Shown here piece by piece: positions 5,429 to 62,022 of a stretch of 64,000 nt of DNA. How positions within the stretch are numbered: position 1 is the first letter of the stretch; each line of letters opens with the position of its first letter. The notes under the pieces were generated by a model, which did not search any database, was not told the DNA's origin, and saw only the letters and a list, made by a program, of their open reading frames with translations. Source of the stretch: Pseudomonas sp. RIT-PI-S. GTDB lineage: Bacteria > Pseudomonadota > Gammaproteobacteria > Pseudomonadales > Pseudomonadaceae. Position numbers and translations under genes: made by a program. The stretch is taken from the NCBI RefSeq assembly GCF_025642975.1, contig NZ_JANZKJ010000004.1, positions 1 to 64,000 on the forward strand. Reading direction: 5' to 3'.

Positions 5429-5466
5429 CTGACTTTTCAACTCACACAAAAATAACAGGTGAGGCG

Positions 5467-26631: not shown

Positions 26632-26753
26632 TACAAACTGCTGCACCAGAAGCACGCCGTATCCAGGCCCGCCAGTCTGGCTGCGGCGAAAACTTGAGCG
26701 GCGGCCCAAAAGGCCGGTGCTTTTACTTTGAAGAAATGAGACCAGCAGGGGCA

Positions 26754-26771
26754 TCCGGGCTGGTACCCGGA
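26754..26771 (+). other. Hairpin in the 245-base sdhB-sucA spacer
   Basis: TCCGGG, loop CTGGTA and CCCGGA form a short stem without a T-run. It could be an RNA processing point between the sdh and suc parts of the operon. Nothing else is seen in the spacer. Confidence 0.35.
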
Positions 26772-26876
26772 CTATCTGCCAGACCCTTGGTGCCTTTGTT
26801 CAAGTCGCTGCACTGGACGTGTTCAGGCTAACCGTGGTTCGCGCCGGTAGCGGCCCCTAACCGAGGGTGACCAAGC

Positions 26877-32563: not shown

Positions 32564-32773
32564 CAACAAGAAACCACGTCGTGCTGCCCGTCGTTCGCCT
32601 TCACAGGCTTGCCGCGGAACGCACGGCGGACTCATCCTTGCAGCCCGGCGCCCCGGCGCAGAGAAGCCTGCTTCTTTCGACCGGGCGCGGCTGCAAGCAG
32701 TGGTCACAGGTGGCGCGGCACTCCAACGAGCGCAGCGCCGAGAGCGCAGTACCTAACGAAGACGGTAATAAGC

Positions 32774-41113: not shown

Positions 41114-41156
41114 AGTATGTATGGTTCGAGCCGTTTCGCTCGGTAAGGTACGCGGC

Positions 41157-41822
41157 ATGGAAACCTGGATCGAACTCGTCAAACAGAAAATGCGCGAGCG
41201 CAGGCTCACTCAGGAGCAATTGGCCGAACGCATCGGCCGCTCCCAAGGCGCGCTCAATCACTGGCTCAGCGGGCGGCGGCGCCCAGACCTCGAAACCATG
41301 AACGATGTACTCCGCGAGCTGGGCGAAGTGGACCTTGAAGTGGTCCAGATCCTCCGGGTCAACGAACAACGTGGTCAATACAACCCCGCGCAGGTGGCAT
41401 CCGGCCCGGAATGGGCGATCAGTGGGCCGGGCTTCAGCTACCCGCTGCTGGAATGGGCCGCGGCGGCTGACGAGAAGCCCTCGATTGCCCACTACAGTAC
41501 CGGGGTAAGCCATTTCTCCGACTACCATGCAAGAGGGCCTGCCTTCTGGCTCACGGTCGAGGGCGAAAGCATGAGTGCGGCGTTTGGCCGTAGCGTTCCC
41601 GCCGGCTCGCTTATTCTGGTCGACCCCTATGCGCAAGCCCACACCGGCAGCCTGGTGATCGTCAGTGCGCCTGAGCACCAGCAAGCGGTGTTTCGGGAGT
41701 TGTTGGAAGAGGGCGGCCGCCGTTACCTCCGGGCGCTTAACCCGACGTGGCCGGTATTGGGCTGGGAGCCTGGGTGGCAGATCAAGGGCGTGGTGGTGAG
41801 AGCGATGCTCATGCTGGATTGA
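41157..41822 (+). CDS. XRE-S24 (CI/LexA-like) repressor with Arg in the Lys position
   Basis: A 221-residue regulator. Residues 5-60 form the XRE helix-turn-helix (LTQEQLAERIGRSQGALNHWLSG), and about 115-215 an S24 peptidase domain with nucleophile Ser138 (VEGESMSAAF). The expected catalytic Lys of the (V/L)KRL motif is read as Arg180 (AVFREL), so self-cleavage may be lost. TAAGGT seven bases upstream supports the ATG at 41157. No prophage genes adjoin it, so it is likely a domesticated phage-type regulator. Confidence 0.82.
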   Translation: METWIELVKQKMRERRLTQEQLAERIGRSQGALNHWLSGRRRPDLETMNDVLRELGEVDLEVVQILRVNEQRGQYNPAQVASGPEWAISGPGFSYPLLEWAAAADEKPSIAHYSTGVSHFSDYHARGPAFWLTVEGESMSAAFGRSVPAGSLILVDPYAQAHTGSLVIVSAPEHQQAVFRELLEEGGRRYLRALNPTWPVLGWEPGWQIKGVVVRAMLMLD

Positions 41823-41836
41823 AGGCGAAATGCACA

Positions 41837-41858
41837 GAGGGGAGCCGAAGCTCCCCTC
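41837..41858 (-). terminator. UUCG-capped hairpin ending the sRNA
   Basis: On the minus strand GAGGGGAGC, a TTCG loop and GCTCCCCTC form a perfect 9-base stem. The U-tract after it is weak (TGTGCATTTC). It also lies 14 bases after the S24 gene stop and may serve both strands. Confidence 0.65.
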
Positions 41859-42189
41859 AAGGTATGTAGCATTTGCTCTTCTTATTGGTCTCAGGCCGCC
41901 TGTTGTTGTTATTGGCAGCGAACCTGTGCACGTATCGGGGCCCCCATTCAGGGCCAAGAGCAAACGTATTTTTTTGAGCGCTGATCCATTCTCACCTCAG
42001 GTCCAACCGTACACCTGCTGCCTCGGGGCAGTTTTATTCTTGTGTGTTCAGTTGCGGGTAATACCCTGGAAAACGCACCTTCCTCAAAAAAATCTGTTGG
42101 CTTCGCCTCTGCCGCGGTTGTTCTTGTTATGTCAGAGTCGTTTGTATTGTTGTTATTGGGTGAAGCATCGTTTTTGTTGTTCTTGTGCG
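41837..42189 (-). ncRNA. Hfq/Crc-decoy small RNA of the CrcZ/CrcY/CrcX type
   Basis: A predicted RNA of about 350 bases that would sequester the Hfq/Crc catabolite-repression complex. On the minus strand six AAnAAnAA clusters are visible: 42174-42184, 42147-42157, 42118-42128, 42034-42041, 41903-41913 and 41879-41886, four of them the extended AAnAACAACAA or AACAAGAACAA forms. A sigma-54 promoter lies just upstream, with IHF and activator-like sites, and a hairpin ends it. The size and promoter type match known CrcZ/CrcY RNAs, which depend on CbrB and RpoN. Which family member it is cannot be told without synteny. No open frame here looks coding. Confidence 0.85.
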
Positions 42190-42198
42190 AATCAACAT

Positions 42199-42215
42199 AG
42201 CAGGCCGCGTGCCAA
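42199..42215 (-). promoter_or_regulatory. Sigma-54 (-24/-12) promoter of the sRNA
   Basis: Minus strand TTGGCACG-CGGCC-TGCT: the GG (42213-42212) and GC (42201-42200) elements are exactly 10 bases apart, as RpoN requires. The predicted transcription start is near 42189. Confidence 0.82.
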
Positions 42216-42233
42216 CTTATAAAAAATCAATAT

Positions 42234-42246
42234 TATCAATGATTTA
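42234..42246. promoter_or_regulatory. IHF site
   Basis: TATCAATGATTTA fits WATCAANNNNTTR with no mismatch. It lies between the sigma-54 promoter and the upstream inverted pair, where IHF bends DNA for enhancer contact. Confidence 0.65.
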
Positions 42247-42297
42247 GCGTTTTCGCGGTTTGCTTTCAGGGTTGCATTGCCCCGTTTGTGTTTCCCC

Positions 42298-42337
42298 GTT
42301 ACCCGCTTCGGTGGGGGGAGCGCCGCGGCTGGTAACA
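42298..42337. promoter_or_regulatory. Candidate CbrB upstream activating site
   Basis: GTTAC (42298-42302) and GTAACA (42332-42337) are inverted half-sites about 85-135 bases upstream of the sigma-54 promoter. The half-site sequence matches recalled CbrB targets, but the 29-base gap is longer than the usual spacing. Confidence 0.5.
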
Positions 42338-42343
42338 CTTTTT

Positions 42344-43285
42344 TCACACAGCCTGCGCTTCAGCCGCCATTGCCTCCCGTTCACGGCTGACGATCGTTGC
42401 ACACAGTTCTATCAGCTGCTCGCGCATCCAGCGGTTCGCTGGGTCCTGATCGGTGCTTTCATGCCAATAAAGATGAGTTTCCACCCTGTTCACACCGGTG
42501 ACCGGCAAAGGGCTGCATGGCAGTTCGTGGCGGCGAGCGAAACGCTCGGGCACTGTCATGACCATGTCCGTTTGCTGTAACACCTGCGAGGCCATCATGT
42601 AATGCTGGGAGCGAAGGGTGACTTTGCGCTGCAGGCCCATTTTGCCCAGCGCCAGGTCGACCTCGCCCAGGCCGTTACGGCGGCTGGAAATGTGGATATG
42701 GGCCTGGGCGAGGTAGCTGTCCAGGGTCAGCGGCTTGCCTTCGAGCGGGTGGCCACGACGCATCGCGCACACATAGCGGTCTTCCATCAGCTTGACGTGG
42801 CGAACCTGGGGGTCGGTATTGAGCGGGGCATCCACGGCGAAATCCAGCCGTCCTGCCGCCAGTTCCTTGGTGGTTTCCCGCCGCTTGCACAGAAAGCTTT
42901 CGATCACCAGCGCGGGCGCCTGGCGCCGGAGGCGGCGCAGCAGCGGAGGTAACATCACCGCCTCGAGCAAGTCAGTCATGCTGATGCGGAACGTCTTGCT
43001 CGCCTGGGCAGGGTTGAACAACCGGCTTTCCTGCACGGAAACGCGCAGCAGCGACAACGCGTTACGCACCGGCCCGACGATGTTCTGCGCCATGGGAGTA
43101 GGGACCATGCCCTGGGCGGTGCGCACGAAGAGCGGATCGTTGAAGGTTTCGCGTAGGCGTGCCAGCGCATTGGACACCGCGGGTTGGGTAATGCCGACGA
43201 TCTGCCCGGCCCGGGTGAGGTTGGCCTCGGTATAAATAGCGTCGAAGACAACAAACAGGTTCAGGTCTACCTTGTTGAGGTTCAT
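42344..43285 (-). CDS. LysR-family transcriptional regulator
   Basis: A 313-residue regulator. Residues 6-65 are the winged helix (LNLFVVFDAIYTEANLTRAGQIVGITQPAVSNALARLRETF), split here as typical LysR sequence with NodD/LeuO-like features; about 95-300 form the effector-binding domain. It is divergent from an acyl-CoA dehydrogenase gene across 147 bases, the usual arrangement for a LysR and its target. Ligand unknown, perhaps an acyl-CoA. Its 3' end sits next to the sRNA activator site. Confidence 0.87.
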   Translation of the reverse strand: MNLNKVDLNLFVVFDAIYTEANLTRAGQIVGITQPAVSNALARLRETFNDPLFVRTAQGMVPTPMAQNIVGPVRNALSLLRVSVQESRLFNPAQASKTFRISMTDLLEAVMLPPLLRRLRRQAPALVIESFLCKRRETTKELAAGRLDFAVDAPLNTDPQVRHVKLMEDRYVCAMRRGHPLEGKPLTLDSYLAQAHIHISSRRNGLGEVDLALGKMGLQRKVTLRSQHYMMASQVLQQTDMVMTVPERFARRHELPCSPLPVTGVNRVETHLYWHESTDQDPANRWMREQLIELCATIVSREREAMAAEAQAV

Positions 43286-61260: not shown

Positions 61261-62022
61261 ATGAACATTCAAAACAATAACTTTGTGGTCAGCGGTGCCG
61301 CCTCAGGATTGGGCGCAGCGACCGCGACGGCGCTGGTCCACGCCGGTGCCCGAGTGTTACTGGTCGACCTCAACGCCGCAGGCGTGGCGGCTACCGCCGA
61401 CGCTTTGGGCATGCCGTCGGCGGTGGCCGACATCACCGACGTGGCCCAGGCTCAGGCGGCCATCGACGCCGGCATCGAGGCCTTTGGCTCCTTGCACGGC
61501 CTGGTCAATTGCGCGGGCGTGGTGCTCGGTGAACGCATTCTTGGGCGCGACGGGCCCCATGGGCTGGAAGCGTTCAAGCGGGTGATCGACGTCAACCTGA
61601 TCGGCAGCTTCAACTTGCTGCGCCTGGCCGCTGCGGCCATGGCCAATAATTCCCCCGATGCCAGCGGCAGCCGTGGAGTGATCATCAATACTGCCTCGGT
61701 GGCGGCCTACGACGGGCAGATCGGCCAGGCCGCCTATGCGGCGTCCAAGGGCGCGATCGCCAGCCTGACCTTGCCGGCGGCGCGAGAGCTGGCGCGCCAT
61801 GGCATTCGCGTGATGACCATCGCGCCAGGGCTGTTCGAAACGCCGATGATGGCTGGGATGACCGATGACGTGCGCGCGTCCTTGGCCGCGGCCGTGCCCT
61901 TTCCCCCCAGGCTCGGCAAGCCTGCCGAATATGCCGCCTTGGCGTTGCACATCATTACCAACGACATGCTCAACGGCGAAGTGATCCGCCTCGACGGCGC
62001 CTTGCGCATGGCCGCTCGCTAG
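61261..62022 (+). CDS. HSD17B10-like 3-hydroxyacyl-CoA dehydrogenase (SDR)
   Basis: A 253-residue short-chain dehydrogenase. SGAASGLG (11-18) binds NAD, and Ser146, Tyr159 and Lys163 (YAASK) form the catalytic triad. The long inserts (GRDGPHGLEAFKRVIDVNL; GLFETPMM) are typical of the type II 3-hydroxyacyl-CoA (2-methyl-3-hydroxybutyryl-CoA) dehydrogenase branch. CAGGAG lies upstream of the ATG. Acts between the hydratase and thiolase steps encoded next door. Confidence 0.87.
   Translation: MNIQNNNFVVSGAASGLGAATATALVHAGARVLLVDLNAAGVAATADALGMPSAVADITDVAQAQAAIDAGIEAFGSLHGLVNCAGVVLGERILGRDGPHGLEAFKRVIDVNLIGSFNLLRLAAAAMANNSPDASGSRGVIINTASVAAYDGQIGQAAYAASKGAIASLTLPAARELARHGIRVMTIAPGLFETPMMAGMTDDVRASLAAAVPFPPRLGKPAEYAALALHIITNDMLNGEVIRLDGALRMAAR

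Follow-up and report, generated by a model that had tools for sequence, protein, structure and literature searches.

A crcY-type small RNA gene, predicted to relieve catabolite repression, directly behind a LysR-family regulator in Pseudomonas sp. RIT-PI-S

The 64,000-nucleotide stretch of Pseudomonas sp. RIT-PI-S DNA analysed here (the window) carries on its minus strand, from 42340 to 41827, a complete gene for a small RNA of the CrcZ/CrcY/CrcX family, and we are highly confident that it is the CrcY member: its transcription is predicted to be activated by CbrB from a sigma-54 promoter on loss of the preferred carbon source, and the RNA would sequester Hfq/Crc through six A-rich clusters, upon which silenced catabolic mRNAs would likely be translated. 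What the sequence shows is family membership, a promoter in the crcY register, the six clusters, covarying helices, a separate crcZ copy and the genes of the partner proteins. A previously unannotated stretch is in this way assigned to the switch by which Pseudomonas lifts carbon catabolite repression, with the copy identified. Apart from the absence of the two genes that usually precede it, this crcY is an ordinary member of a well-known family; the identification as crcY, the set of regulatory partners encoded in the genome and the missing neighbours go beyond the initial annotation of this DNA, which had recognised a decoy RNA of this family and left the member open. The features are as follows.

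41827..42188, minus strand: crcY small RNA, predicted start at about 42188 and 3' end near the hairpin (Rfam RF01675, fold z-score)
42171..42184, minus strand: A-rich Hfq/Crc motif cluster 1 (this and the other clusters from AAnAAnAA scan and alignment)
42147..42157, minus strand: A-rich motif cluster 2
42118..42128, minus strand: A-rich motif cluster 3
42034..42041, minus strand: A-rich motif cluster 4
41903..41913, minus strand: A-rich motif cluster 5
41879..41886, minus strand: A-rich motif cluster 6
41839..41856, minus strand: 3' hairpin GGGGAGCTTCGGCTCCCC (GGGGAGC-UUCG-GCUCCCC), likely terminator
42199..42214, minus strand: sigma-54 promoter TGGCACGCGGCCTGCT, -24 GG at 42213-42212 and -12 GC at 42201-42200
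42234..42246, minus strand: IHF-consensus site TAAATCATTGATA, 32 bases upstream of the sigma-54 box
42297..42302, minus strand: predicted CbrB R-type half-site GTAACG, 88 bases upstream of the sigma-54 box
42332..42337, minus strand: predicted CbrB F1 half-site TGTTAC, 123 bases upstream of the sigma-54 box
42344..43285, minus strand: LysR-family regulator (Pfam HTH_1 and LysR_substrate), directly upstream of crcY
41121..41822, plus strand: HTH_3/Peptidase_S24 repressor-like gene, convergent, downstream

Membership of the family, as claimed in the initial annotation, is borne out by the Rfam search that it had suggested: the CrcZ model (RF01675, gathering cut-off 95 bits) matches 42186-41805 on the minus strand at 257.8 bits (E 9.8e-71) over its entire length (positions 1-398 of 398). 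The RNA is divergent, the best copy per genome in a sample of the genus mostly scoring above 300 bits, and the stretch 41827-42189 has an RNA fold z-score of -3.61 relative to 100 shuffles. That the RNA was hidden is true of protein-based annotation, to which it is invisible, but not of Rfam, which finds it at once.

The six AAnAAnAA clusters that had been counted are present, 11 overlapping matches on the minus strand falling into six groups, a number that none of 2000 dinucleotide shuffles of this 363-nt segment attained (mean 0.50 clusters, maximum 4); among 363-nt slices of the window taken on both strands at steps of 20 away from the crcY locus, none reached two. Clusters 2-6 recur within six alignment columns in 77-79 of the 79 aligned family rows, and cluster 1 is present in 48 of the 79. 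Within the lineage of the window (which comprises the window itself, P. quercus, P. massiliensis and "P. japonica" 66C3) clusters 1 and 6 are each found in three of five tree rows, and at least five clusters per RNA are retained throughout.

The RNA can be drawn as four hairpins with 23 pairs (five helices by the tool's grouping), and across 44 distinct aligned sequences 94.8% of the cells are paired, a share that falls to 46-50% once the pairing partner is shifted by one to three columns, a control that leans towards the structure since the latter was drawn from the window row and the 44 relatives were picked by class from those available. Changes on both sides of a pair were counted in 45 cells, compared with 15.2 in shuffles, none of 500 of which reached that number; two weaker measures of covariation, pairs with a double change (7 versus 3.9, reached in 5 of 500 shuffles) and further pair types (16 versus 14.1, reached in 45 of 500), point in the same direction. 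Covariation of the helices across relatives thus argues for an RNA under selection. The UUCG hairpin that had been placed at the end of the RNA is indeed found there, running from 41856 to 41839 on the minus strand, and its six counted pairs are paired in 100% of the 44 distinct rows. The U-tract after it is weak and a terminator scan did not call this hairpin, so that the 3' end of crcY is not fixed by sequence.

At the other end, the sigma-54 promoter stands where it had been proposed, 12 bases before the start of the RNA: with the -12 element at 42200, the +1 position would lie at about 42188. The box TGGCACGCGGCCTGCT is the sole match to TGGCACGNNNNYTGCW in the window at no more than one mismatch, and has none; shuffles contain on average 2.64 such matches, therefore the box taken alone is not beyond chance and it is its position that counts. 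A sigma-54 site scoring at least 9 of 12 is found in all 158 of the compared rows, the window among them. In these promoter comparisons, where some genomes are counted twice, an IHF match is found in 97 of the 116 crcY-type rows, in all 97 at 30-36 bases upstream, and the R half-site occupies 85-90 in the window and in 109 of the 116; none of the 16 crcZ rows has it there, 15 of them carrying R half-sites at 100-106 and 80-84 instead. TGTTAC occurs within 180 bp in 112 of the 116 crcY-type rows, at 120-126 in only 79 of them. The half-site sequences and the role of IHF are taken from a study of P. putida promoters (PMC6296734).

The window has 390 TGG-N10-GC sites, both strands counted, and of these the crcY sigma-54 box alone has the register of F1, R and IHF sites upstream, one other site having both hexamers at a different spacing. 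The exact R-type hexamer and the IHF consensus are each present in only two of six rows from the lineage, one genome being counted twice. In P. ogarae F113 the crcY promoter is reported to have an ANR box (TTGAT-N4-ATCAA; PMC12552145); this pattern was not found in the corresponding region of the window, and a slightly relaxed form of it was missing from the 180 bp before the sigma-54 box in all 158 compared rows. A sigma-70 scan added nothing.

The question of which member this is can be answered from the other copies of the family. The assembly (99.13% complete, 50 contigs) has two RF01675 matches, the window copy on contig C34 and a second one (281.2 bits) on contig C8, where the cbrB-pcnB synteny put forward as a check in the initial annotation is found: this RNA, crcZ, is preceded by genes for a PAS/HisKA sensor kinase and then a sigma-54-type response regulator and followed by pcnB (TIGR01942), an order that corresponds to cbrA-cbrB-crcZ-pcnB, the Cbr names being assigned by position and domains rather than by model matches. 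The window copy therefore occupies a locus of its own. In the genus sample all 149 genomes, including this one, have at least one family match, the number of copies being one in 19 genomes, two in 115, three in 14 and four in one.

An ortholog of the window LysR protein (E <= 1e-90) is found in 147 of these 149 genomes, and in at least 96 of the 149 (again with the window genome included, and with 4 of the 295 family matches unplaced in this count) a family RNA lies within 15 kb downstream of it on the same strand. Among the matches listed, the gap between the two is at least 1.5 kb in 94 of the 96, and only in the window genome (161 bp) and in G146 (182 bp; genomes of the sample are numbered, the window genome being G000) does the LysR gene immediately precede the RNA. 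What usually fills this gap is a cluster in which one member is named HMG-CoA lyase by NCBIfam (NF004283) and the gene before it is MerR-like. Of the best 80 of 578 named loci of the LysR protein, 66 have the RNA in the fetched stretch, the lyase cluster being directly upstream of it in 63 and LysR in three, which are labelled P. japonica 66C3, P. massiliensis CB1 and P. quercus; the cluster is also upstream in 15 of 20 second copies fetched that are not linked to LysR. The crcY of P. putida KT2440 is listed as PP3540b (PMC6296734, Table 1), and longer PP3539-mvaB-crcY transcripts are reported in P. putida, where they are processed to CrcY*, the basal form of CrcY (PMC6292655); because of these two reports, the locus of MerR gene, HMG-CoA lyase gene and RNA is taken to be that of crcY, PP3539 being, from its position, probably the MerR gene. 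What the common locus shares with the window is the outer neighbours (acyl-CoA dehydrogenase and LysR) and the promoter register, and the window copy can accordingly be identified, as far as order and sequence go, as a crcY without the MerR-lyase pair, crcZ being the one further copy in the assembly.

In a midpoint-rooted tree of 79 RNA sequences, 14 of the 15 crcZ rows, those of the window genome (G000), G146 and G080 among them, fall into one clade, supported at 100, from which the window copy is absent. The window RNA joins the other RNAs of its lineage (support 100) in the neighbourhood of further crcY rows; the branches leading there on the crcY side are weakly supported (32-81). Two further arrangements were seen in the course of these comparisons. 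Tandem crcY-type RNAs are present in Pseudomonas sp. T1-3-2 and in G086 (L109, 6434-6805 and 6970-7344; L145, 3385-3724 and 4056-4399). A third locus type, with genes for a choline-binding-like protein and a conserved 432-aa protein close by, is found in at least 12 of the 149 genomes (L133-L144) and may be crcX; it nests among the crcY rows at a support of 72, which leaves the border between X and Y soft.

It is this soft border, together with the fact that promoter parts and A-rich clusters are common to all members of the family, that would allow the window copy to be read as a second crcZ-type or crcX-type gene behind LysR, either a recent duplicate of the genome's own crcZ or a member of the P. 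syringae type. We consider this very improbable, given that the own crcZ falls into the 14-row clade and the window copy outside it, that the promoter register of the window fits crcY and not crcZ, and that its upstream genes match those of the common crcY locus, while those of the third locus type are different. A recent duplication of the own crcZ is ruled out by the RNA tree and the promoter register.

The identification as crcY leaves one departure from the usual locus: in this lineage the MerR gene and mvaB (HMG-CoA lyase) are gone from it, and crcY lies some 160 bp behind the LysR gene and still has its CbrB/sigma-54 module. LysR thus stands where mvaB would be expected directly before the RNA (PP3540), a difference in a neighbour and not in a part of the RNA. 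Three loci with the lyase in front and those with LysR in front can be aligned with each other over the intergenic module that extends from GTGTTACC to the sigma-54 box; in the window, five bases lie between the LysR stop codon and GTGTTACC.

Some 160 kb from the locus, the same contig carries a group of genes for a MerR regulator, an acyl-CoA dehydrogenase, a carboxyl transferase and the lyase, whose products share 67-79% identity with the query proteins; this group is probably the leucine (liu) cluster. Among 18 genomes, the least similar lyases are those of G000, G146, G080 and G043 (67-70% identity versus 77-100% in the other 14), and all four have a family RNA outside cbrB-pcnB without an adjacent lyase. 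In seven others (G001, G042, G060, G069, G082, G138 and G147) a family RNA is found in other neighbourhoods and the lyase is 80-83% identical, so that the link between a divergent lyase and the altered locus is not one to one; replacement of the native lyase cluster is possible. The divergent HMG-CoA lyase of the lineage, at 67% identity to the query (L180, 6444-7328, on contig C34 of G000), is perhaps of foreign origin. In G043 (L128) the family RNA is directly behind a PstS/OmpA-like gene, with no lyase at this spot and no LysR ortholog at E <= 1e-90 in the genome, possibly an independent loss in which the RNA was kept. No description of the crcY locus of this lineage was found in a library of open-licence PMC papers, to which the search was confined.

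Since the MerR gene and mvaB no longer precede crcY, any basal supply by read-through would have to come from the LysR transcript or be absent. We offer, as a tentative proposal that is more likely to be wrong than right, that crcY of this lineage has been cut loose from the PP3539-mvaB operon and is now either purely dependent on CbrB and sigma-54 or supplied with a basal level from LysR, in which case both the floor and the trigger of repression relief would have been rewired by a change of neighbours, with the RNA and its enhancer unchanged. The loss of the usual upstream genes leads in this way to a testable prediction on basal CrcY, and species with and without crcY behind mvaB constitute a natural experiment in which the role of basal CrcY* can be tested across species.

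The same loss of neighbours, the divergence of the RNA sequence and the fact that single members of the lineage have lost some promoter and cluster matches would also be expected of a decaying relic, a copy on its way out while crcZ does the work. Against this, every RNA of the lineage retains at least five clusters, the helices, the sigma-54 box and the F1 half-site are likewise conserved throughout it, and the promoter module is whole though the genes up to its very edge are gone, which makes decay even less probable than a misassigned copy.

Least credible of all, to the point of being negligible, is that the stretch encodes a protein on the other strand: an antisense frame of 130 aa is open at 41830-42222 on the plus strand, which is the one caveat to calling the stretch gene-free, a description that otherwise holds, and antisense frames of 102-136 codons are open in four relatives from the lineage too, for which reason openness is evidence neither way, but the 130-aa frame has no Pfam match at E 0.1 and the conservation is explained by the RNA helices and the A-rich motifs. 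An antisense protein was accordingly ruled out.

If the RNA is CrcY, the proteins that it would work with are encoded in the same genome. The Crc gene, beside pyrE, encodes 259 aa and matches the P. aeruginosa-type Crc chain 4jg3 with an E value of 4.2e-157 (in the PDB search the top chain, 2myi, is labelled exodeoxyribonuclease III and the next two catabolite repression control protein), and Hfq, a sigma-54 factor and the CbrA/CbrB-type pair are encoded as well; with these partners present, CrcY and CrcZ together would release catabolic mRNAs. CbrB and RpoN are reported to drive crcY in P. putida and A. vinelandii (PMC6296734, PMC6292655), and CrcZ of P. aeruginosa, in which six A-rich stretches are described, binds and titrates Hfq via the distal face (PMC4063720). 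By analogy with other Pseudomonas and with Azotobacter, CbrB and IHF would activate the sigma-54 promoter of crcY when the carbon source is poor, CrcY would titrate Hfq/Crc through its six A-rich clusters and catabolic mRNAs silenced by Hfq/Crc would then likely be translated, CrcY probably being redundant with CrcZ in this respect.

Several neighbouring catabolic genes had been put forward as Crc targets, a proposal that stands in part. Outside the RNA the window holds 19 AAnAAnAA motifs, two of which, at 5448 and 8291 on the plus strand, begin 19-20 bases before the starts of dgoK (PF05035) and dgoT (TIGR00893), while another lies just inside the start of a short-chain dehydrogenase gene at 61261; given that number of motifs, these are only suggestive of possible local Hfq/Crc targets. 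The same scan finds no AAnAAnAA near the starts of the FadH-like gene (2338) and the acyl-CoA dehydrogenase gene (43433), which had also been proposed. The window further contains matches to Rfam sucA-II (26656-26873, 142.2 bits) and sucC (32703-32772, 79.6 bits), both on the plus strand and by their names elements of TCA-cycle genes.

When compared with known systems, the window copy belongs to the same family as CrcX of P. syringae, which requires RpoN and CbrB according to PMC8657755, and differs in its neighbours from the third locus type, perhaps crcX. With CrcZ of P. aeruginosa (RF01675), reported to be 407 nt long (PMC4063720), it shares the match to the model over the whole length and the six A-rich stretches; crcZ lies between cbrB and pcnB, whereas the window copy lies elsewhere and has one R half-site, at 88. 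The likeness to CrcY of P. putida KT2440 (PP3540b) and of Azotobacter vinelandii extends from the family to the sigma-54 promoter with its CbrB half-sites and IHF site and to the status of a second copy besides crcZ; the difference is that P. putida is reported to have the arrangement PP3539-mvaB-crcY, while in the window it is the LysR gene that stands directly before crcY.
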